Positions 25,422 to 47,981 of a stretch of 54,681 bases of DNA are shown here, piece after piece. The translations under genes and the position numbers were made by a program. The stretch comes from a virus. Positions within the stretch are counted from its first letter, which is position 1; every line of letters starts with the position of its first letter. The notes under the pieces were generated by a model that made no database searches, was not told the DNA's origin, and saw only the letters and a program-made list of their open reading frames with translations. The stretch lies in IMG/VR virus record IMGVR_UViG_3300034022_000682, positions 1 to 54,681 of that record, one strand, 5' to 3'.

Positions 25422-27251
25422 ATGGCTGAATTAAAATTTTTAAGTAGAATTAGAACAGGTGCAGCTGACATCAGACAAGATGCTCAGACGTATATTTCTA
25501 GGGTCTACAGTAGAGCTAATACTCTATTTACGGTGGCTTCACCGTTTGCCCAAATAATTTCAGTATTATCTGAAATATCTGATTTAATTATGTTCTACAT
25601 TGAAGATTCAGTAGTAGAACAAAACATATATACTGCTCAACAAGCAGAATCTATATATGGTATGGCTAGATTAACTGGTCATGATGCTACTAGAGGATTT
25701 GCTGCAACGGGTGAGATTGAATTTAGATGGAAACCCGGAGCAGATATGTCAAAGATTGCTGGAAATACATTAAATATACAATCTAGAGCTCAACTAAAAT
25801 TTGATGCAAATGGATTAATGTATACTCTTTTAAATTCTAACGATAGTTTTAAATTAGAAAAAACAAATTATACATCTATTAAGACTGCTATTATTCAAGG
25901 TAAGTTTGAATCACAGACATTAACTTCTAGTGGTGAAAAATTACAATCATTTAGTATTAATACCGGTGGTATAACAGATCATACTAAAGTAAGTGTTAGT
26001 GTTAATGGAGAACTTTGGACAAAACATCAATCTTTATATGATTTAGGTTCTGAAGAAAAAGCATATTTAGTTAAGACTGGAATTAGTGGAGGTTTAGACC
26101 TTTATTTTGGTAACGGAAGTTTTGGAATGGTACCACCCAATGGTGCTACAATCGAAATAGAATATGTAAAGCATAGTGGAATGACAGGTAATTTAGATGA
26201 TTCACCTGATTTAACTATTAAATGGGACGCAGTTGGTACTGATTCAAATGGTAATGAGCATGATCTAAATCAATTTTTAGACGTAACTATTACTTCATCG
26301 CCTAAAATGGGTGGTGATAGAGAAGATACCAGATTTACAAAGATTATGACACCAATGGCAAGTAAGTCTTTTGTATTAGCAACTCCTGATAATTATGAAT
26401 ACTTCTTATCAAGATATAATATGTTCTCTTATATAGATGCATATAATACAACTGACGACCAATATTTGGACGATGATAATGTTATTTATATTTTCGCAGT
26501 TCCTGATATTAAAAAGAAACTTGCAAAAAACCAAGATTATTTTAATATTCCACAATCTGAAATGTTTTTAGATCAAGGTGAATATGATGCAATGCATAAG
26601 GTATTAGAAGATAGCGGACAACAAATGGTAACTACCGAAGTTGTTTTTGTTAAACCTCAAGTAAGATATTACAGTATGGATATTAACATTAGATATTTTG
26701 AAGGTTACACTAGAGATGAAATATACAATGCGGTTAGAGCTAAAGTTTCTGAATATTTATTGAGTATCACACGAAGAGATAAATTACCTAAATCTGATAT
26801 AGTTTATATTTTGGAAGAAGTTGCAGGAATTGATGCAGTGAATGTTAGATTTATTTCTGAAACTGAAGAAACTGCATTAAGAAATGGTTACTTTGAATCT
26901 GTTAATGTAAGCGTTGTACCACAAGAACCCGTAACACTTGAAACTGTTGGAAATGGTAAACAAAAATACGTTTTCTTTAAAAGAATCGAAGATGTAAAAG
27001 TAGTACCCGTTAAATATTCAATGGATATACCTGATACTGTAAAAGGATTGGATCAATGGGGTGATATTATAATGGAGAAAGAAGAAGTTGCTGTATTTAG
27101 AGGTGGATGGTTAGATAGAGATGGTGATGTTATCGAAGATGATGTATTAATGAATGCTGAAGCTGCAGTTAGTATTAACTTTGAAGCAGATCCTGTACCT
27201 AGAACAATTTACACTAGAATACAAGCTGGAAATAGAAAAGCACTTAAGTAA
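25422..27251 (+). CDS. 6: Baseplate wedge protein gp6-like (baseplate J family)
   Basis: The 609-residue protein starts 16 bases after gp25. The N-terminal helical part (FTVASPFAQIISVLSEISDLIMFYIEDSVVEQNI.., AESIYGMARLTGHDATRGFAA) and central beta-rich region follow T4 gp6 and gpJ organisation. The C-terminal part contains RAKVSEYLLSITRRDKLPKSDIVYILEEVAGIDAVNV, the typical J-type segment. gp6 forms the inner ring of the baseplate. Its last base is shared with the next start. Confidence 0.8.
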   Translation: MAELKFLSRIRTGAADIRQDAQTYISRVYSRANTLFTVASPFAQIISVLSEISDLIMFYIEDSVVEQNIYTAQQAESIYGMARLTGHDATRGFAATGEIEFRWKPGADMSKIAGNTLNIQSRAQLKFDANGLMYTLLNSNDSFKLEKTNYTSIKTAIIQGKFESQTLTSSGEKLQSFSINTGGITDHTKVSVSVNGELWTKHQSLYDLGSEEKAYLVKTGISGGLDLYFGNGSFGMVPPNGATIEIEYVKHSGMTGNLDDSPDLTIKWDAVGTDSNGNEHDLNQFLDVTITSSPKMGGDREDTRFTKIMTPMASKSFVLATPDNYEYFLSRYNMFSYIDAYNTTDDQYLDDDNVIYIFAVPDIKKKLAKNQDYFNIPQSEMFLDQGEYDAMHKVLEDSGQQMVTTEVVFVKPQVRYYSMDINIRYFEGYTRDEIYNAVRAKVSEYLLSITRRDKLPKSDIVYILEEVAGIDAVNVRFISETEETALRNGYFESVNVSVVPQEPVTLETVGNGKQKYVFFKRIEDVKVVPVKYSMDIPDTVKGLDQWGDIIMEKEEVAVFRGGWLDRDGDVIEDDVLMNAEAAVSINFEADPVPRTIYTRIQAGNRKALK

Positions 27252-36678: not shown

Positions 36679-39600
36679 ATGGCATCAATTTCAATTAAGA
36701 CAATTCCATACGCAACTAGTGTTTTAGCATGTACTAATGGACCTGCTGCGAGTGGCACCCTAACATTATATTATAATGACACTACATTTCCAACATTTGG
36801 AATAAATGTTATTTTATATACAGATATTGCCATGTTATTGGTATTTAATGGTGGTGATACTTGGTATTATAAAGCGATTGGTACAGAGACTATTCAAGTT
36901 GATAGCAATGGTAAAATAACTGATATGGCTGTATGTGCAGCGCCAACTCCAGTAGTTACTGCAACACCAATAGTTACTGCAACACCAATAGTTACTGCAA
37001 CACCACTTCCACCAACAGCTACTGAAATTCCACCAACGGCTACACCAGTTCCTACTGTTGTACCGACGGCTACACCAATTCCACCAACGCCAAGTCCTAC
37101 ACCTGATAGTGTACCGATTGCGATAAGTGCTGCATATGGTGTTTCTTGGAATGGAACATTGACTATTACATTGACAGGTCTAGATGATCAGACTACTAAT
37201 TTATTTTATACTATTGTTGACCAACCTACTAAAGGTACATTGACTAGAGTCGGTGTTGCTGGTTCGGCAGTATATTCATATGTGCATACAGCATCTACAA
37301 TTGGATCTGATTCATTCACATTTACAGTAAAAGATGGAAATAATCAAACTTCTCCATCTGCTACTATAACAATTAATCCTGCAAATGCAGTTCCTGTGAT
37401 CGTAAATCCGGGTACAATATATGTAACGCAAAATAGTTTTTCTAATTTTAATATATCTGTTACCGATTCAGACGGAGACACTGTAACTTTATCTACTATA
37501 ACTAGTCCTATAAAAGGTGCTATAACAATAAATGGTCAAACTGGAAATACCATAAGTGTAAAATATACACCTAATTTGGGTATATTTGGTAATGATAGTT
37601 GGACTATAAGAGCTACTGATTCAAAGGGTGGACAATCTGTACCATTTACGGTTGCGTTTAGTATTATGTCAACGCCTAGGTTTCAGATGAATATTGGATC
37701 GTTTGGAAATGATCCAGATTCAATATGTTTTGCTGCTAAAAATAATTTAGCGTATGGTTCTACTTCTCAGGCAAATAACGTATCACAATTAGTAGCTCGT
37801 ATTAATGAGGTACCTGCTACACCGGGTACACCTGCAATACCTGCAATTCCAGGTGATTCTATTTATTACGATGAAAGTCTAGTTAACAAAGTGGTTCCAG
37901 CCAGTTCTATTATAAATTTAGTACCGGTGTCTGATAGCTCTGCATCTGTAATTTTAGGAATAGATCTTTCTGGTGAAATTATCAGCATTACTCCATGTGG
38001 TATTACGTCTACATCGTCTTCTGTAAATGTTAAGTATGCTACAAATTCCAGAGATTATTGTTCGGGTGATTATCAATACGTAACGCTATGGTATGAAGGT
38101 AGTGTGTCTAAAACTTTAAGTGACTTAGTTAATTACGACATACCTCTTTTTAGTAGCGAATATTATTCTAATTTATATACAAGTACAGGCAGTCAACTTG
38201 GTCAAATAGATAGCGGAATTTACAGTGCTTTAAATTCGACCAGTGTTTACTATAAACGATCTACTACAAATACATGGGGTAAATCAAGACCCTCTTCAGA
38301 TGATTTTGAATGGCTATGTGGTATATTACTTCCTAACGAGACTTTTGAATTAACTTCTATTTATAAAACTAATTTATCAGATCCTACTATAAATCAGTTT
38401 TGTGCTGGAACTGCAAGTTCAACCTCTTTATTTTATGTTAGACAAGAAGGTATGCGACCGTTTAGTGGTTTATTGGAGCTAGCCAAATCAAATACACCTA
38501 TTTATAAATCTAGTATTGGCGCTACGGTAGAAGATCCTGATGATTTATTTGAATCTAATATATTTGAAGATAACACCGGATATTTAATTTGGGAAAATCT
38601 AGGTGATGGAGTTAATTTTAAATGGTACGGTTATAATAATAATAAATTATTGGTATCAGGTGGTGCTATATCTACATATGGTGAGTGTGAAGATTACATC
38701 AAACCTGAAATAGTTACAAATGAGTTCATCACTAATGGAAATATAGAAAATGTATTTTACGGATTTTATTCATGTACTCCTGAAATTGAAGGACCTCAAG
38801 CTGGTAATAATGTTGAGACTTTATTTTGGCCTATATACATCATAGATGGATTGCATACTAATTATCCTGGAGATTCAGGTAGTTATATAAAAGATTTTGT
38901 AGATACTTTATCGTTTGGAAACGTCATATCTTCCAGCAGCTTCGATAGCTGTTTAGAATACAGCTTTAAAATTATTGCTGAAGACATTGATGAAGCTAAA
39001 TCTTTATTGTTGGCTGCAATTGCAGAAGAAACACAAGCGCTGTATGTCGCAAATTTAATACCTTCACCAGTTCCACAAAAGCGCCCAGTTGTTTCAAGTG
39101 GAACGCAAATTGGTTTAGGAAGTGAAGCTATTATACAAGTATACGGAGATACAAAACCATGTATTTCTAATGTTACTGGTTTAGTATTAGAAACTTATAC
39201 GTTTCCATTAATAGCTGATTATGAAACTATTAAAGCGGGTCCTAATTTTAGGACTCAAACTAATTATCAATTAGATAATGTTACAAAACCATTATTGAGA
39301 ACTAATCCAAAATTATCGGGTAATATTAAAATTGTTACAAGTTCAAATGGTTCTGTTTATTTAGAAAGTATTAATGCTTCTAAAGAATTGGCCGCTATAA
39401 AATATAAAAAGAATGTAGTTAATCCTAATGGTAACTATGCAAATGATGTTGCGAATTTCTTTAAAAATACTGGAACACCTTCTGATTTGATTTATTTAAC
39501 AAAAAGATCTGAATCTGATTTAACAGTATTAGGTTCTTATGATAAACAAATAGAAGAGGAATACCAATATGGTACAACATATAATTATTCTAAAAACTAT

Positions 39601-42600
39601 GATGAAAATTATAGAATTTTTGCACCTATATGGGCTGACAATAATATGCCAGATAATTTTGTAATTTTTAAAGTTAAAAATCCAACAGGTATCGATGCTG
39701 CGACAGTTAGTACTGATAACGTTTCAAGAATTCAAGAGATATTAAAAAATGCTGAAATAGTTAAAACATTTGATCTATCTAAAAAATCAGATTTAGGTAA
39801 GTACATTAGAAATCATGTACAACAAGAAACTTTTCCAAAGGCACCAATTACTGTTTCGTTTGGTAAAAATGACATGACTAGTTTTAATGGTATTGATATT
39901 AAGTCTGGTGAATTAACTAGTAAAGGTGAATACATTTACAAAGATTATGTTGAAGCTGACAAACCTCTTATTGAAGCCAATGATTTTATCACAGATGGTT
40001 TTAGAAGAAATGGTATGTTATGTGCTAACTTGTTAAACTTAGAGTTTTTGTTTGACGATGAAAGTTCAAGTGACTATAGCGTTAACAGATACTTTGGATT
40101 ATATGTTGATGCAATTGATTCTGGAATAGGTGAAATAAATTCTATAGATAATAATATTATTAAGTTTAGTAATGTTACTTCTTATGTTGATGCTAATAAT
40201 CCTATTACTGCAATTCCATCACATAAACAAATGTCTACTTCGCCTACATTAGGTTACGTGTCAATAAACGATATTTACTATAAGATTTCTAATTCAGGAC
40301 TTTATGATCCTAAACAATTAGAAGTTAAAATAGATGATACTACTGGAAATATACCGAGCACGATTGGAATATCTAACACTGGAAGATCGGTTGATTTAAT
40401 CAAGACCGATGAAAGAGGTTATGACTTTGTTAAAATGTCAATCATAGATGTCCCAGATAGTAGCGATGCAATTGCTGTTGTAAGTTCAAGAGAAGAATCT
40501 TACAAGTTTACATTTGTAAAACATACACCAGGTGAAAATATTAGCATTAATATTGAAGATTCTACTGGACCATATCAATTTACGTTTACTACTGGTTCTA
40601 CTTTCAATTTAACAATACTTAATATGTTAAACGCTTGGAACAATTTTACTTTTTTAAATAATCCAACTAATCCGATATTAGAATTAAATATTGATGCAGT
40701 TAAAAAATCATTTGTTATTACTGAGATAAAAACAAATTTAGGTGATCTTAACATGTATGTTTCTGGAGCAATTAGTTCTATCATAAGAGTTGATCAAATT
40801 CAAACAAACATAAATATTCAAAACAGAACATATTCTGCTAATTATACTTTACCGAAAGGAACATATAGTGGAAAATTCTTTTCTAGTCAAGGTAAATTAG
40901 GTGATATTGCTTCTGCTTTAGCAAGTGCTATACATGCTGATGATAGTGCATTAGATGCATTTAATATTGGATCTGATATTTGGATTAAGTCTAGAATTCC
41001 AGGTTATAAATTATTGCAATATACAGTTTTGGTTAATAAATCAAATGTTATTGATTTTGTAAAAGTTAACAATAGAGATACTGATAATATTCTAAAATTA
41101 AGAGATGGAGCTAATACAGTATTGTTTAAGTGGGATGCATATTATTTAACTGGTGGTAATTCTACTGGCAAATCCATCTTTATTAACAATACGACTATTA
41201 GCGAAATTTCTATAGGAGATTATCTAGAAACTAGACATGCCAATGAATTTAATAGAGTGTTGGATATTGTTGAAGATATAACTGTTCCTAATTCTACTAG
41301 ATCTAAATTAATAATGCAATTAAAGTCAGATACACCTGACGGTGAAGCTAGAGTATTTAATGAAAACATAGTTAAAATTGGACTATTCTCAGCGTATGAC
41401 ATATATGACATGAATTTTGATTTTTACGATACTTCTAATTCTGATCTAAAAGAACTAGATTATGAAACTAGAACTAACTTAAATTACGAACCATATGAAA
41501 ATGCTATAGCAAAAATTGATCCTATTACTGGTGAATTTAATACTAAGTTAGATGCTAATGATATATTTGATGATAGTTTTGCATTAGATCCTATAAACTA
41601 TTTCTCAAATCTTTCTGAAATATTATCGGAAGAAACTGTAGTAGAAATAGCTGGTCAGAATATTACAAGTGAGTTTGATAGATTAAAAGAAAACGAACTT
41701 AAAGAATTTGCTATAAACTCAAGAGTGGTTCCTAATATTAATAAGTGGGTTTTAAAAGATTCATTGACGGTAAGAGATCAACCTTATTATTTAAATACTA
41801 ATGAGGCTTTTGGTAGAACTAATTTCTCACCAGATTTAGGTGCTACTAAACGTAATAGAAATGATATGACTCATGAATGGTTTTATATGGATAAAAAACC
41901 AAAGTATTTAAGATATGACGAATTAAATGATACGTTTTCATATGTTAATTTTATTGAAGACTTTGAATTAACTGCTGATTTATTTAAGAGCACTAAGAAC
42001 AATTATTTTGATAAGTTCATGATAACCGAAGGTTTTGAAAAGAACCTGGATGCAAATGATATAACGAGTATTTATAATAAGTTTGGTGAATTCACTAGAA
42101 GCTATTTAAATCCAGATGATGTAAACAATACTTTCTTTAAAACAAATCTAAAGAAAAAATATACATTAATCGACGGCGGTGATACTAGTGCTTTTGCTAG
42201 TACTATATTTAAGGGATTAAAAGTTGTTCTTAAAAATAGAAAAGAATTTACAGAAAAAGTTGCATTAGACTTTGTACCTACAAGTGAATTTAATGGATAC
42301 AAATTTAGTATTTTATTGAAGACTAATACTGATGTGAAAACTAATAGTGTTGATTTTGAAGTAATTCAAAATAAGAAATTTAAATTTGTAATATTCTTTA
42401 TTAACTTAAACATAAGTGATTATTGGATTAAGGGAAATATGAATAGAAAACTACTTTATGAATTAAACCATAAAATAGTATACGATCATACAATAGAAGA
42501 CTATAATTATGCTAACACTTCTTTTAGTGGTGCATTAAGTTGGAATACTGCGGATTTTACTGGAAGTACACCATTTGTTGTTGAAGGTATTAATCATTTT

Positions 42601-44181
42601 GATGGATCTGTTCCTAATTTTGAGAATGATATTTTAATAGGTGAAAATGGATTATTTGGAGAAGTATTAATGGACATTTATCCGGAAACTCCTGGTAATA
42701 CAATGTATAAATTTTCAATTTATTCAATTCAAGATACTAACACTATGTTTGTTGTTTCAAAGCCAGTTAATGTTAATGATCCAAATGATATATTAGATGT
42801 TACATATTTGCCTAATTATACTCAAAGAAAAATTAAGTATTATTACACAAATGGAGGTGGTCATATTCACAAGACTCTTTTAGAGAAAATATCTATAAAC
42901 AAGGTTGCTGATATGATTAATTTAAATGATGATAGTGTTACATATACTACAGTTGAAGAAGATGGAACTGTAAATAATAATAGATTTACTGTCAACTTCG
43001 ATGATGGTAATGAAATAATTAAATACGCAACTATTTCTATTGAGGAAGATAACGATAAACCTAAAAGTTATAAATTATTTAAAGGTATTATTGGTTATAA
43101 TCTTGTTAGATCTGATGAGGCGTCATACTATCCATTCTTAGTTAGACATAATGGTGCATACACTGTTGATTTTACACCAGTGATAACATTTACCGATATG
43201 TACACTCATTTTAAATCTAATAGAATTCAGGCGAGTGCAGATCAAAGAGAAACTGGATTAGAGCCTATATTATATAGGCATTCGTTAACTGATGGATATG
43301 AATTAACTACGGCTAAATCATATTATGAAAGATATAATAGATGCGGTACTGCATTTAATGTAGGATTTATACAAGATGATGGTACGCATGATAAATATTT
43401 CGGTGTTATTAAAAACCATTTTTATCACAAGGTTAATGAAATAAATCCAACTGGTATTACAAAGCTTTCGGAGTCATCTGATAAACTTCCGTTGTACCCA
43501 TTAATTGATGAAGTTGCTATTTCTAAAAAAGATGTAAACGTATTTAGATCTTCATGGGATGCTGGTTATTATACAAGAGCTTTTTCTGGTGGAAAATCAG
43601 AAGACATTCCTGGAACATTAGATAACACTGAAGAAAGATCTTATCTTGCATCTACAGTAATGAAGGTTAAAGATAATTACGATCTTATTTCGTTTAAATA
43701 TCAGTCTATAAATAGCAAAGAAAAGTTAGATGAAATATTAAGTAACTCTATAAATGAGGCAGAAGTGTTAATGTTCGAAGATGAGAATGAAATTGTTGCT
43801 GATTTTTATATTACTGATATTACTACTAGATTATTAAAAGAAGACGGAGTATTAACTGGAATTCAAAACTATGTAAGTGTTCAAAATTCAGCAGGTGATA
43901 AAACAACATTGTCTGATGATGCTGATTTTTATATAAGTAAAAATATCATCGAACAGTTTGTTGTTGATTCTGTAAAACTGTACACTAAAAGATTCAAAGG
44001 GGCTGCATCAAGTATAGTTAGTTCTAATGATATTAATTTAATTGGTGATGGAGGATTTTCCCCTGATAATAATTTCACTTATAAACCTCATAAGCAAACG
44101 CCTATGAATTTTAGGTTGATATATAATAAAAGATTAGGATATTCTTACGACATTAAACCTATGATAAAAATAAAGTCATAA
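36679..44181 (+). CDS. Giant 2500-residue tail adhesin/structural protein
   Basis: A small N-terminal domain (1-88) is followed by a Thr/Pro/Ala linker of repeating TATPxxP units (about 89-144). Two tandem cadherin-like or Ig-like domains come next (about 145-332; SDSFTFTVKDGN and GNDSWTIRATDSKGG). About 2150 further residues contain DENYRIFAPIWADNNMPDNFVIFKVKNP near 980 and many beta-rich stretches. No transmembrane segment is seen. This looks like a modular virion protein, with an adhesive front end fused to a long structural body. No enzyme motif was recognised. A recombined adhesin fused to a conserved baseplate protein is an alternative reading. Confidence 0.65.
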   Translation: MASISIKTIPYATSVLACTNGPAASGTLTLYYNDTTFPTFGINVILYTDIAMLLVFNGGDTWYYKAIGTETIQVDSNGKITDMAVCAAPTPVVTATPIVTATPIVTATPLPPTATEIPPTATPVPTVVPTATPIPPTPSPTPDSVPIAISAAYGVSWNGTLTITLTGLDDQTTNLFYTIVDQPTKGTLTRVGVAGSAVYSYVHTASTIGSDSFTFTVKDGNNQTSPSATITINPANAVPVIVNPGTIYVTQNSFSNFNISVTDSDGDTVTLSTITSPIKGAITINGQTGNTISVKYTPNLGIFGNDSWTIRATDSKGGQSVPFTVAFSIMSTPRFQMNIGSFGNDPDSICFAAKNNLAYGSTSQANNVSQLVARINEVPATPGTPAIPAIPGDSIYYDESLVNKVVPASSIINLVPVSDSSASVILGIDLSGEIISITPCGITSTSSSVNVKYATNSRDYCSGDYQYVTLWYEGSVSKTLSDLVNYDIPLFSSEYYSNLYTSTGSQLGQIDSGIYSALNSTSVYYKRSTTNTWGKSRPSSDDFEWLCGILLPNETFELTSIYKTNLSDPTINQFCAGTASSTSLFYVRQEGMRPFSGLLELAKSNTPIYKSSIGATVEDPDDLFESNIFEDNTGYLIWENLGDGVNFKWYGYNNNKLLVSGGAISTYGECEDYIKPEIVTNEFITNGNIENVFYGFYSCTPEIEGPQAGNNVETLFWPIYIIDGLHTNYPGDSGSYIKDFVDTLSFGNVISSSSFDSCLEYSFKIIAEDIDEAKSLLLAAIAEETQALYVANLIPSPVPQKRPVVSSGTQIGLGSEAIIQVYGDTKPCISNVTGLVLETYTFPLIADYETIKAGPNFRTQTNYQLDNVTKPLLRTNPKLSGNIKIVTSSNGSVYLESINASKELAAIKYKKNVVNPNGNYANDVANFFKNTGTPSDLIYLTKRSESDLTVLGSYDKQIEEEYQYGTTYNYSKNYDENYRIFAPIWADNNMPDNFVIFKVKNPTGIDAATVSTDNVSRIQEILKNAEIVKTFDLSKKSDLGKYIRNHVQQETFPKAPITVSFGKNDMTSFNGIDIKSGELTSKGEYIYKDYVEADKPLIEANDFITDGFRRNGMLCANLLNLEFLFDDESSSDYSVNRYFGLYVDAIDSGIGEINSIDNNIIKFSNVTSYVDANNPITAIPSHKQMSTSPTLGYVSINDIYYKISNSGLYDPKQLEVKIDDTTGNIPSTIGISNTGRSVDLIKTDERGYDFVKMSIIDVPDSSDAIAVVSSREESYKFTFVKHTPGENISINIEDSTGPYQFTFTTGSTFNLTILNMLNAWNNFTFLNNPTNPILELNIDAVKKSFVITEIKTNLGDLNMYVSGAISSIIRVDQIQTNINIQNRTYSANYTLPKGTYSGKFFSSQGKLGDIASALASAIHADDSALDAFNIGSDIWIKSRIPGYKLLQYTVLVNKSNVIDFVKVNNRDTDNILKLRDGANTVLFKWDAYYLTGGNSTGKSIFINNTTISEISIGDYLETRHANEFNRVLDIVEDITVPNSTRSKLIMQLKSDTPDGEARVFNENIVKIGLFSAYDIYDMNFDFYDTSNSDLKELDYETRTNLNYEPYENAIAKIDPITGEFNTKLDANDIFDDSFALDPINYFSNLSEILSEETVVEIAGQNITSEFDRLKENELKEFAINSRVVPNINKWVLKDSLTVRDQPYYLNTNEAFGRTNFSPDLGATKRNRNDMTHEWFYMDKKPKYLRYDELNDTFSYVNFIEDFELTADLFKSTKNNYFDKFMITEGFEKNLDANDITSIYNKFGEFTRSYLNPDDVNNTFFKTNLKKKYTLIDGGDTSAFASTIFKGLKVVLKNRKEFTEKVALDFVPTSEFNGYKFSILLKTNTDVKTNSVDFEVIQNKKFKFVIFFINLNISDYWIKGNMNRKLLYELNHKIVYDHTIEDYNYANTSFSGALSWNTADFTGSTPFVVEGINHFDGSVPNFENDILIGENGLFGEVLMDIYPETPGNTMYKFSIYSIQDTNTMFVVSKPVNVNDPNDILDVTYLPNYTQRKIKYYYTNGGGHIHKTLLEKISINKVADMINLNDDSVTYTTVEEDGTVNNNRFTVNFDDGNEIIKYATISIEEDNDKPKSYKLFKGIIGYNLVRSDEASYYPFLVRHNGAYTVDFTPVITFTDMYTHFKSNRIQASADQRETGLEPILYRHSLTDGYELTTAKSYYERYNRCGTAFNVGFIQDDGTHDKYFGVIKNHFYHKVNEINPTGITKLSESSDKLPLYPLIDEVAISKKDVNVFRSSWDAGYYTRAFSGGKSEDIPGTLDNTEERSYLASTVMKVKDNYDLISFKYQSINSKEKLDEILSNSINEAEVLMFEDENEIVADFYITDITTRLLKEDGVLTGIQNYVSVQNSAGDKTTLSDDADFYISKNIIEQFVVDSVKLYTKRFKGAASSIVSSNDINLIGDGGFSPDNNFTYKPHKQTPMNFRLIYNKRLGYSYDIKPMIKIKS
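36961..36996 (+). repeat. 18-bp tandem repeat encoding the TATP linker
   Basis: GCAACACCAATAGTTACT occurs twice in direct succession (36961-36978, 36979-36996), with a degenerate copy before it and a partial copy after it. It codes for ATPIVT units. Closely related tracts occur in the genes at 44183 and 45871. Confidence 0.8.
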
Positions 44182-44182
44182 A

Positions 44183-45826
44183 ATGGCAATTAACATTCAA
44201 GAGATATTACACCCAAGCGATTCGGACTCTATAAAGTTTGAGAAAATCAATTATAACTTTGATCAAATTTTAGCGAATGGTGGTGGGCCAATTGGACCAA
44301 AAGGTCAAAAAGGTGATCAAGGTCTACAAGGAACTACTGGTCAAAAAGGTCAAAAAGGTGAAACAGGACCTATTGGTTTAAAAGGTGTTTCCGGAGCTAC
44401 TGATAGTCCATGGTACAAAGTTAATGTCGATACAAATAATGATGGTCAAAATGAAGTTAGTATTTTAAAACCTAAAATTGGATCAGATTCAAATATGCCT
44501 ATTATTTGGTTAGGTGATGATGATTTTGTTGAAGATGTAACTGATGGTGATATTTCTACTAATGCTAGATTATCAATTGCCAAAGATACTACCTTTGAAA
44601 ATTATATTAAATTATATCATGCTATCGATAAAGCGCTTGTAATGACAAGTAATGCTGATGGTATATTTTCTAAATTTAATTGGCAAAATGCATTTGGTAG
44701 TTCAAATATAGAGTTTGGAGCTACTACAGATAAAATTACATTCCTAGCAAATAATTATGCATTTTCAGCCAGTGGTGTTGGAATGAATTTAAAGTCAATT
44801 GGTAATACAAATATCAAACTCAGTAGCACTGGTTTTGGAATTTTAGATGTAGACATGAATGCTGAATTTAAGGGTTATTTAAGATTGCCTGCTGGTACTA
44901 CAGGTCAAAGACCTTCTGTACCTCAATTAGGCATGATTAGATTTAATACCGATTTAGATATTGTTGAAGCTTATTATAATAATGGTGGAACTCCTGAATG
45001 GAGAGAATTATGTACTGATTGTGGAACACCTGTTGGTGACAGCATCGGTATTTCGGGTGGAGATATAAATGCTAATGCTGATGGATCTCCAGCAACTGAT
45101 ACAATTGAAATTACAGGTGGAGATATAAATGCTAATGCTGATGGATCACCATATTCTGCAGTAAGCGCAACATTAAGTGCAGTTGGATCTACTTCACTTA
45201 CAGCAACTTATAATATTCCAACAACGCTGTATTTAAATTATACAATTGCACCTACATCATCTGATCCAGGATCTTCTAACGTATTTGTTAATACTCCTGG
45301 ATTAACTATCACTCCTGAACCTTCTAGTAATAGAATAAAAGTTGTGACAAGCGTTGATGTTGTTGGTAAAACTTGGAACGTAACAGTTAAACATCCGTTA
45401 GATTCGAATGTTATGGTAGTTTGGAATATATCATTAGTAAGTGCTGCAACGCCAACTGCAACACCAGTTGTGCCAACTGCTACACCAGTTCCAGCTCCGA
45501 CTGCAACCCCTATCCCAGCTGCAACTGCAACAATAACTAATGTGGTACATGTTGTTGATGATACTGCTAGCGTTGTTTTCAACTTAAGTGATACTGTTAA
45601 TTGCTCGGCAGTTACAGTTCAATATGGTTCTAATCCAACTGGACCGTGGACAGGTGCTACATCGGGATGTTCATCACCTCGTTCAGTAAATATTTTTGGT
45701 GCATGTGGTAATACATATTACTTTAGAGTTGTTGAAACTAGAAGTGGTTTAACTGATGTTATATCTAATGTATATCAATTCACATATCCAGATTGCGGTG
45801 GAGGTGGAGGTGGATCACCTTCATAA
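44183..45826 (+). CDS. Collagen-like tail fibre with TATP linker and FN3-like tip
   Basis: The 547-residue protein begins with an INIQEILHPSDSDSIKFEKINYNF motif (3-26) shared in pattern with the gene at 30371. A Gly-X-Y segment follows (GPKGQKGDQGLQGTTGQKGQ, about 34-75). A tail-fibre core includes GTTGQRPSVPQLGMIRFNTDLDIVEAYYN, then a duplicated GGDINANADGSP segment, an Ig-like domain, a TATPVVPTATPVPAPTATP linker, and an FN3-like domain (CSAVTVQYGSNPTGPW..YYFRVVETRSG). It ends DCGGGGGGSPS. The collagen and fibre parts support a trimeric receptor-binding fibre. Confidence 0.75.
   Translation: MAINIQEILHPSDSDSIKFEKINYNFDQILANGGGPIGPKGQKGDQGLQGTTGQKGQKGETGPIGLKGVSGATDSPWYKVNVDTNNDGQNEVSILKPKIGSDSNMPIIWLGDDDFVEDVTDGDISTNARLSIAKDTTFENYIKLYHAIDKALVMTSNADGIFSKFNWQNAFGSSNIEFGATTDKITFLANNYAFSASGVGMNLKSIGNTNIKLSSTGFGILDVDMNAEFKGYLRLPAGTTGQRPSVPQLGMIRFNTDLDIVEAYYNNGGTPEWRELCTDCGTPVGDSIGISGGDINANADGSPATDTIEITGGDINANADGSPYSAVSATLSAVGSTSLTATYNIPTTLYLNYTIAPTSSDPGSSNVFVNTPGLTITPEPSSNRIKVVTSVDVVGKTWNVTVKHPLDSNVMVVWNISLVSAATPTATPVVPTATPVPAPTATPIPAATATITNVVHVVDDTASVVFNLSDTVNCSAVTVQYGSNPTGPWTGATSGCSSPRSVNIFGACGNTYYFRVVETRSGLTDVISNVYQFTYPDCGGGGGGSPS
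45056..45147 (+). repeat. 32-bp direct repeat, 60-bp spacing
   Basis: A 32-base sequence starting ggtggagatataaatgctaa is identical at 45056-45087 and 45116-45147, encoding GGDINANADGS twice in the fibre gene. It is an in-frame duplication of 20 codons. Confidence 0.85.
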
Positions 45827-45870
45827 TATTAAACTAAAATAAAATTAAAATAAATATAAAAACATAAATA

Positions 45871-47154
45871 ATGGCAGCTAACGATTACATAAGAACGGTA
45901 AATATAACACCATTGAGTACTAGTTACTCTTGGGATACCCCACCGAGTTGGATCACTATTACTAGAATAGGTACATCTAATGATTGGACTATAACACTTG
46001 CAGCTAATAGCGGCGTAGCTAGAAATGCTACACTGACAGTTAGACATGCTAATACAACTACGGTTGACACAATTGCAGTTTCTCAAAACGGTGCGAGTGC
46101 AACACCAACACCAACACCAACTTCGGGTTCAGGTGCTGGACCAACTGCAACACCAATTGTGCCAACTGCAACACCAATTCCACCAACGCCAACGGCAACT
46201 TCACCAGCGGGTGCAGGTTACGCTCTATCTTTTGTTGACTCCAGTTATACAATTGATGATTTTAATAATGGAGCAGGTTCTTATGTTGATTTAGTTTATA
46301 ATATTACAGGTGCTACAACTCCGCCTACATTGGTAGAAAAAGATAGTAGAATAAGTTGGACTAATAGATCAGGACCTACTGGTGGTGTTGGTACAATTAG
46401 ATTGTATAGTTTAATGTCAGCTGGTGATCCACCTTCTAGTTTTTCAATGTCACCAGACTTTAAAATTGCACATCCATTAAGTAGTAGTGTAACAGCTTCT
46501 ATTCCTGGCTATATAATTCAGGCAGATGGTGGAATTAGATTTGTATCGCCAACAGCAACAGCAATGCCTAGTCCAACAACACCACCATATACTGGCGGTG
46601 GAGGCGGTGGAGGCGGTGGATGTCACATTGCTGGAGAAATGATTACGATGGCAACTGGTGAAACTAAGGCTGTTGAAAACATTCAAGTAGGCGATCAATT
46701 ATTATCATTTAATGTAGATGGATATAATTATGATGAAGAAGCATATAAAAATTGGTCTTCTCATATAGATAACTTTATAGGTGAATTTACATCGGTTCAA
46801 GTAATCAAAGTGATGGCTGATACATATACATCTTACTATGACTTTAATAATGGAGCTCTTAAGATAACGTACGAACATCCTATATTGATCAAAGATATAA
46901 ACAATGTAGTTTCTTGGAAAATAGCTAGAGATGCTTCTATAGGTGAATCTATGTTAAACGAAAATAATCAATGGATTTTAATTAGTGCTAAGTCATTTAT
47001 AGAAACAGAAGTTCCATTCTCAACTTGGAGTTTTAATGTAGAAACTGAAGATGTTTACTTTGCAAATGGTATATTAGTACATAACTTAGTAAACGAACTG
47101 GAAAAGGGTTTTGATGACGGTTCCGGTGGTGGTACTGGCGAAACAATAAGATAA
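45871..47154 (+). CDS. BACON-domain tail fibre with C-terminal Hint self-processing domain
   Basis: The 427-residue protein has four parts. Residues about 1-75 match the BACON domain (WITITR...WTITLAANSGVARNATLTVRHANTTTVDTIAVSQNG), common in Bacteroidetes surface proteins and their phages. A TPTPTP/TATP linker follows at about 77-112, then a beta domain at about 115-228. A nine-Gly run (242-250) then leads into a Hint domain from C251 to N405. A 22-residue tail starts with Leu406. The start is ATG 45871 in an AAATAATGGC context. I infer a surface-binding virion protein whose front part can be released or covalently transferred by the Hint domain. Confidence 0.75.
   Translation: MAANDYIRTVNITPLSTSYSWDTPPSWITITRIGTSNDWTITLAANSGVARNATLTVRHANTTTVDTIAVSQNGASATPTPTPTSGSGAGPTATPIVPTATPIPPTPTATSPAGAGYALSFVDSSYTIDDFNNGAGSYVDLVYNITGATTPPTLVEKDSRISWTNRSGPTGGVGTIRLYSLMSAGDPPSSFSMSPDFKIAHPLSSSVTASIPGYIIQADGGIRFVSPTATAMPSPTTPPYTGGGGGGGGGCHIAGEMITMATGETKAVENIQVGDQLLSFNVDGYNYDEEAYKNWSSHIDNFIGEFTSVQVIKVMADTYTSYYDFNNGALKITYEHPILIKDINNVVSWKIARDASIGESMLNENNQWILISAKSFIETEVPFSTWSFNVETEDVYFANGILVHNLVNELEKGFDDGSGGGTGETIR
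46621..47085 (+). other. Hint (intein/Hedgehog-like) domain within the fibre gene
   Basis: Codons 251-405. Block A is CHIAGEMITMATGETKAVENIQVGDQLLSF, with nucleophile C251 preceded by Gly250. Block B is TYEH (T333-H336, TxxH). The end is FANGILVHN with H404-N405. The residue after Asn is Leu, not Cys/Ser/Thr, so standard protein splicing is not expected. Cleavage or transfer at the Gly-Cys thioester, as in Hedgehog or bacterial intein-like domains, is possible. There is no room for a homing endonuclease. Confidence 0.8.
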
Positions 47155-47168
47155 TAAATTTTAAACAA

Positions 47169-47981
47169 ATGGAAATTAAAGAAAACATAAAACAATTTTT
47201 TTCAAATAAGAGCCTGGTTATTTTTGTAGCCGGTGCTCTTTTTGTTTTATTGTTTTTAAAACAGTGCAATCAAATAGACAATTTAAAAGCTAAAGTTGAG
47301 ATGACTGAAAAAGATTCTCAAAGAAACTTTAATAATTATTTGGCTTCTAAAGATTCAGTAAGAATTGTAGTTGCTAAGAATGGTAATTTGATTGCTGAAA
47401 AAAGAAGTTATGAATTTGATCTTAATGATTTAAAGGGAGATCAAAAAGAACTAATTGAAAAATATAAAGATGCTTTAAATTTAAATAGAAATTTAAATAA
47501 GGTGAATACTTTATTGACTGCTGATTTAAAAATAAAAGACACGTTTGTAGCTGGTACTAGTACTACTAAAATAGACTCGATAAATACTAAGATTAAGTTT
47601 AGTAAATTTGATGATTTTGGAAAAGGTAATTCTAGAGATCTTTCAGGAGAAATGCTAATCACAAAAAATGGTACAGATTTTAAATACAGTGATGCTACAT
47701 TCTCTATAAACCATAAGATTAATTTAATGGCTGCTATAGAAAATGTTGATGGAGCTGATCAATTAAAAATTTCAACTTCTTACCCTGGTTTAACGTTTGA
47801 CAATATAGAAAATATAAACCTAATTAATACTAAATTAAATCAAAAGCCTGTTAAAAAAGGTGGTTTTGCAATCGGTATTGGTTTAGGATATGGAATAAAT
47901 TTAAATAATAATCAAATAATAAGTACTGGTCCATCAATAGGCCTTGGACTCTACTACTCACCAAAGTGGTTAAGATTTTAA
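47169..47981 (+). CDS. Inner-membrane-anchored coiled-coil protein, possibly spanin-like
   Basis: The 270-residue protein has a basic N-terminus and one transmembrane helix at about 15-31 (SLVIFVAGALFVLLFLK). A periplasmic helical, Lys/Asp-rich region runs from about 36 to 115. A middle beta region and a Gly-rich end follow (GGFAIGIGLGYGINLNNNQ..SIGLGLYYSPKW), which looks like outer-membrane beta-hairpins. This arrangement bridges both membranes, as expected of a spanin-like lysis protein, but it could be another envelope protein. It lies alone after the fibre genes, with no holin or endolysin recognised nearby. Confidence 0.55.
   Translation: MEIKENIKQFFSNKSLVIFVAGALFVLLFLKQCNQIDNLKAKVEMTEKDSQRNFNNYLASKDSVRIVVAKNGNLIAEKRSYEFDLNDLKGDQKELIEKYKDALNLNRNLNKVNTLLTADLKIKDTFVAGTSTTKIDSINTKIKFSKFDDFGKGNSRDLSGEMLITKNGTDFKYSDATFSINHKINLMAAIENVDGADQLKISTSYPGLTFDNIENINLINTKLNQKPVKKGGFAIGIGLGYGINLNNNQIISTGPSIGLGLYYSPKWLRF

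Follow-up and report, generated by a model that had tools for sequence, protein, structure and literature searches.

Hint domains of the bacterial intein-like (BIL) kind are known mostly from bacterial proteins, and to our knowledge they have been assigned no settled purpose after two decades. Those of type A combine a C-terminal His-Asn with the lack of a nucleophile at the following (+1) position; they give rise mainly to cleavage products (PMC4031507; PMC7664689), with weak splicing being possible by way of amine attack (PMC4031507). On tail fibres and spikes, peptidase S74 acts as a C-terminal intramolecular chaperone that detaches itself (PMC7824862). Here we describe a Hint of the type A BIL kind at the end of a putative viral tail fibre, where it probably serves as a tag that removes itself.

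The DNA under study (hereafter the window) is a stretch of 54,681 nucleotides making up the IMG/VR virus record IMGVR_UViG_3300034022_000682. The fibre-Hint gene lies on its plus strand at 45871..47154, an ORF coding for 427 residues plus a stop; the coordinates are exact, and the numbering of all residues named below was re-checked on the translation. An assembly artefact is ruled out, since the same protein recurs with 100% identity in two further viral contigs (L001 and L002). PHROGs and NCBIfam searches with the window protein returned no match. It is probably a tail fibre, to judge from its genomic surroundings and from the annotation of relatives as tail or virion proteins: a collagen-like fibre gene lies just upstream (44183..45826, plus strand), its own product ending CGGGGGGSPS without a Hint, and further upstream, at 25422, there is a baseplate wedge match, which suggests a contractile-tailed phage. 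Also coded nearby is a 2500-aa protein with Ig-like/cadherin-like domains, and the genes downstream, beginning with that at 47169..47981 (plus strand), are kept in all close relatives.

Within the fibre-Hint gene, all the features of which lie on the plus strand, residues 23-72 (45937..46086) are plausibly a BACON domain, as had been proposed, although the match to Pfam PF13004 (E 8.3e-4, 19.7 bits) falls below the cut-off of 25 bits. There follow a linker rich in Pro, Thr and Ala with PTATP repeats (46087..46221), modelled with pLDDT <50 over residues 79-113, and an all-beta domain (residues 118-218; 46222..46524), a candidate host-binding part that is variable or replaced in relatives. In the full-length AlphaFold2 model the latter has a pLDDT of about 84-94 over most of its extent; modelled in isolation it is poor (pLDDT 59), and the structure search with the whole model gave it barely any coverage. 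PTATP-type linkers are found in three adjacent tail genes (36679-47154 of the window), and short stretches of such linkers cross-align between genes of relatives, which points to a possible route of module exchange. Residues 242-250 form a run of nine glycines (46594..46620), after which the preliminary description had placed a complete Hint domain from C251 to N405, with TxxH at 333-336, and then a leucine; both the residue numbers and the fold are confirmed. This 155-aa Hint (46621..47085) holds C251 (46621..46623), the predicted nucleophile of an N-S acyl shift with the predicted cut after G250, block B with T333-Y-E-H336 (46867..46878) and block G with H404-N405 (47080..47085). An acidic, unconserved tail of 22 residues (47086..47151), of which Leu406 is the first, closes the protein.

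By every feature of sequence and predicted fold tested, the Hint belongs with the type A BILs, having Cys1, TxxH, the C-terminal His-Asn, a fold closest to that of BILs and a non-nucleophilic residue at +1. A phmmer search matched the C. thermocellum BIL domain 2lwy over residues 252-405 (E 6.5e-7). In the AlphaFold2 model, where residues 251-405 mostly exceed a pLDDT of 90, the best structural match is BIL2 of Tetrahymena (6y75, 6tmm; Z 21.1, rmsd 1.5, 140 aa), followed by the same C. thermocellum BIL (Z 19.0, rmsd 1.6, 134 aa), with DnaB inteins (Z 18.1) and Hedgehog (Z 17.1) ranking lower; Foldseek agrees. C251, H336, H404 and N405 are invariant in 35 aligned Hints and T333 is present in at least 90% of them. 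A profile search for further Hints in the window found none besides that at C251-N405. The likeness that had been drawn between the Gly-Cys junction and both BIL and Hedgehog domains holds for BILs in terms of fold and signature; a Hedgehog-type adduct is a weak proposal and disfavoured, given the lower fold rank and just 22 aa past N405, and the sterol-recognition region of a Hog domain is lacking. An ordinary (class 1) intein is rejected on account of Leu406 at +1 and a host protein that does not resume after the Hint, and 155 aa are too short to house a homing nuclease; a class 3 intein would need the N-terminal Cys/Ser to be absent, but C251 is there. A toxin-releasing PT-HINT is also rejected, since the Pfam PT-HINT match over residues 258-405 (E 1.1e-3, 19.7 bits) lies under the 27.7-bit cut-off and no toxin domain comes after the Hint. 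Thus, the statement that the domain cannot splice normally stands as regards the class 1 pathway, which is closed by the lack of a +1 nucleophile, but "cannot splice" is too strong, as type A BILs splice weakly (PMC4031507) and Thr is found at +1 in one close relative (L003) and in most of the jumbo-phage orthologs described below.

Selection has acted unevenly along the protein. The Hint gives a dN/dS of 0.13-0.19 in same-type pairs (window, L003 and L005), a sign of purifying selection; the corresponding figures are 0.06-0.14 (0.06-0.13 in these same-type pairs) for the BACON part, the most conserved of the protein, and 0.35-0.60 for residues 118-230, a variable part. Past N405 the ratio reaches 0.63-1.7 in pairs of the window, L003 and L005 (0.63-0.90 for the window against L003 and L005), a value drawn from 18-20 codons only, and the net charge of this tail ranges from -1 to -6 across ten relatives. 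The similarity of many relatives to the window protein stops near residue 104-122. Because the BACON domain is the slowest-evolving part, whereas residues 118-230 vary, it looks like the virion anchor and likely attachment end and not like an adhesin, and the earlier idea of a released BACON adhesin is not supported.

The close relatives fetched from viral contigs carry a Hint either of the window type (L003, L005) or of another type (L004, L006). The latter two share 89-91% DNA identity with the window over the BACON part but 44-47% over the Hint, and their blastn similarity runs out within the Gly codons, at 46611/46616 (the Cys codon, at 46621, lies 5-10 bases further on), to restart at 47169 (L004), exactly at the start of the next gene, and close to it at 47153 (L006). 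In a maximum-likelihood tree, the window-type Hint groups with Hints of collagen fibres (L020/L023) and the L004/L006 type with L074/L056; forcing the two types together is rejected (p-AU 0.004, lnL 28 worse). As read from these alignments, the whole Hint cassette is swapped in L004 and L006 for one of another clade, the replacement retaining the Cys, the block-B His and the HN. When the N-terminal 250 residues were used as the query, all full relatives of the BACON fibre, a small set of about ten distinct proteins, had a Hint, and in all those not cut by a contig end the Hint finished in HN, with Leu, Thr, Ala or Val at +1 (Ala, Val or Leu in most close relatives, Thr in L003). In L004 and L006, two shorter BACON paralogs without a Hint adjoin the Hint-bearing gene.

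A wider distribution emerged from profile searches, which recovered 84 distinct full-length phage Hints, with 47 of the 84 lying no more than 25 aa from the stop and 15 following a Gly-run; the presence of Cys and HN in 84/84 is a partly circular count, the domains having been chosen by full-length profile match. Among clusters formed at 60%, a Gly-run precedes the Hint in 10/48 from phages versus 2/45 from cells (Fisher p 0.028), in a sample that is small and search-dependent. One carrier of a Gly-run and Hint, L062, is a lambda gpI-like tail assembly protein (PHROG 32, E 3e-25), in which the Hint looks like an addition because nearly the entire tail-protein profile precedes the Gly-run; further carriers are baseplate-hub proteins (L046, L082; PHROG 2048), a tail-tip protein (L021) and collagen or BACON fibres. 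As a separate observation, a set of viral-contig proteins of about 750-910 aa (L027, L028, L032, L034, L037, L043-L045, L048, L052, L067) has three or four C-terminal Hints in a row with 2-6 residues between them, the first often being without Cys (it starts SGSLI or similar). Tandem Hints also occur in archaeal MAG proteins (L089, L101), nine in Thermoplasmata and four in Nanoarchaeota, each unit ending HN, mostly with the next Cys within a few residues. Many bacterial proteins, mostly from Bacteroidota (L108-L152), end in a Hint with HNK/HNR plus a few residues, a layout of the protein end that matches that of the phage proteins.

Collagen-like fibres that terminate in a Hint of 26-32% identity also occur in 44 phage records, most of them from jumbo phages of Erwinia amylovora, along with those of Dickeya and Yersinia. 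Each of 12 orthologs examined over its whole length shows Cys, THEH and HN, with 7-12 aa (about ten) left behind the HN and with Thr at +1 in 11 of the 12 and Val in fHe-Yen9-02; nearly all jumbo orthologs have the Gly-Cys junction (PHROG 38766; Y3 gp110, NCTB BN7874_136). Their tail has a conserved KAEKT, the codons of which hold GCGGAG a few bases before the ATG of the next gene; a ribosome-binding site of that gene accounts for the conservation, so that no functional C-extein is needed and this candidate role for the tail is rejected. In Salmondvirus JA11/JA29, where the gene order is the same, the orthologous fibre ends ITARNPK, seven residues short of G|C, and the coverage of the remaining JA records is likewise 66%. 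Because NCTB and Afa-NA1, which are more distant than the JA phages, carry the Hint, its loss in the JA phages would be the simpler history. Searching viral sequences with the complete jumbo fibre protein yielded only two partial loci.

Some further records from these phages deserve mention in their own right. Directly adjoining the NCTB tail protein with the intact Hint is a stand-alone degenerate Hint gene (BN7874_135; L014:11698-12159) without the N-terminal Cys or the block-B His. In Yoloswag and Afa-NA1, the products labelled "putative large intein domain protein" (L016:9505-11526, L015:8585-9811) gave no Hint match, and the label seems to have been taken over from the Hint-bearing NCTB homolog. 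Records PV550095.1 (Alcaligenes phage Afa-NA1) and PV359490.1 (Salmonella phage Sen-NF) gave the same match with identical statistics despite their different hosts, and one or the other may be contaminated or mislabelled.

The reading that we consider probable is that the C-terminal Hint is a temporary tag that cleaves itself at G250/C251, such that the mature fibre ends in poly-Gly. C251 would attack the G250-C251 bond in an N-S acyl shift assisted by T333 and H336, and the thioester at G250 would then be resolved, mostly by water, to leave the glycine run as the fibre terminus; in parallel, cyclisation of N405 may detach the 22 residues behind it. The work of the tag, whether on folding, trimerisation, solubility or timing, would be done ahead of assembly or while it proceeds, after which the tag would be gone; the delay, on the model of S74-type chaperone domains, might serve the folding or the order of assembly. 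Because the JA phages lack the Hint and the cassette is exchangeable, the importance of the domain would seem to lie in its chemistry, not in a permanent place in the fibre. In favour of self-removal, the Gly-run at the end of the neighbouring collagen-like fibre resembles the expected product of the cut, and the keeping of the catalytic set through cassette replacement points to a kept function. Against it may be counted the Thr at +1 in 11/12 jumbo orthologs and L003, which could support splicing there, and the fact that an uncut Hint valued for its fold alone would give the same sequence pattern. Virion mass spectrometry of these proteins was not found in the literature searched.

Between the two outcomes envisaged in the preliminary description, i.e., release and covalent attachment, the Hint-less JA relatives favour simple removal. 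In coupling, the Gly250 thioester would pass to an amine, either of a Lys or of an N-terminus, on the host surface or on a second tail subunit, creating an isopeptide bond; this appears unlikely, even though such a bond is reportedly formed through splicing by BIL2 (PMC8616854), whose fold is the nearest, and a flexible Gly-run before the Cys is common in phage Hints by the cluster counts above. No acceptor is seen, the JA phages manage without the Hint, the domain is exchangeable between phages, and the Gly-run may be a mere flexible joint or recombination point. We would allow but a small chance that the Gly-run-Hint cassettes are exchangeable built-in ligases fixing the fibre covalently without ATP. 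Splicing at a low level, with the Hint being excised by the type A BIL route and the fibre joined to its short tail, draws on the intact Cys and HN, the ability of type A BILs to splice (PMC4031507) and the Thr at +1 of L003 and of the majority of jumbo orthologs; it is nevertheless very improbable, as Leu406 is at +1 in the window, Ala, Val or Leu is at +1 in most close relatives, and nothing would be gained with a tail that drifts here and is explained by a ribosome-binding site in the jumbo phages.

Two other alternatives keep the Hint in the virion. It might remain uncut and act upon host contact, freeing the part before or beyond it, as would accord with its place at the C-terminal, usually distal, fibre end and with the regulation of certain inteins, e.g., by zinc (PMC8616854). 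However, on one side the cut would free nothing but the Hint and the 22-aa tail, the BACON domain behaves as an anchor and no sensor is seen, which leaves such triggered release with a slim chance. Alternatively, the chemistry might be lost and the beta domain be retained for its fold, as a tip cap or for binding. The fold itself is well predicted, but two distinct cassettes both keep the catalytic residues and purifying selection is strong, making an inert Hint at most a faint prospect.

Searches of the openly available literature turned up no work on Hint domains carried by tail fibres or other tail proteins. GenBank does record such domains on phage tail proteins: the product names/notes of NCTB and Y3 already read "phage tail protein, contains intein domain", and the function is not discussed in the papers found. 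In the same literature we found no earlier description of the exchange of cassettes, of an ortholog without the Hint, of the drift in the tail or of the recurrence on tail proteins that are unrelated. These observations place the BIL class on isolated, cultivable phages, i.e., the jumbo phages of Erwinia, Dickeya and Yersinia, and on several unrelated tail proteins; with Hint-free relatives and cassette swaps both occurring in nature, a role in virion assembly becomes directly testable. A tail tag that cut or coupled itself would add a new stage to the maturation of tails, and the Gly-Cys cassettes could be put to use as C-terminal thioester tools.

A parallel with peptidase S74, for which the window protein has no Pfam match, may be struck only in the way it works, its Ser/Lys chemistry being unrelated. 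With the PT-HINT of polymorphic toxins, the window Hint shares the best-named Pfam Hint match, yet one beneath the cut-off and with no toxin domain following. BIL2 of the Tetrahymena BUBL polyubiquitin locus is closest in fold; it too does without ordinary splicing, and it donates the protein that precedes it, as the phage Hint would. BIL2, however, is flanked by domains of the ubiquitin-like kind and its locus also supplies the acceptor Lys, whereas for the phage Hint no acceptor is known. The fibre of the jumbo phages likewise has its Hint at the C-terminus of a tail protein, but its N-terminal part is collagen-like where that of the window is a putative BACON domain, and its +1 residue is usually Thr where that of the window is Leu. 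With the C. thermocellum BIL (2lwy), the fold, Cys1, TxxH, His-Asn and the lack of a +1 nucleophile are held in common; what sets the window Hint apart from the type A BILs is its place at the very end of a fibre, behind a Gly-run and with a drifting 22-aa tail.
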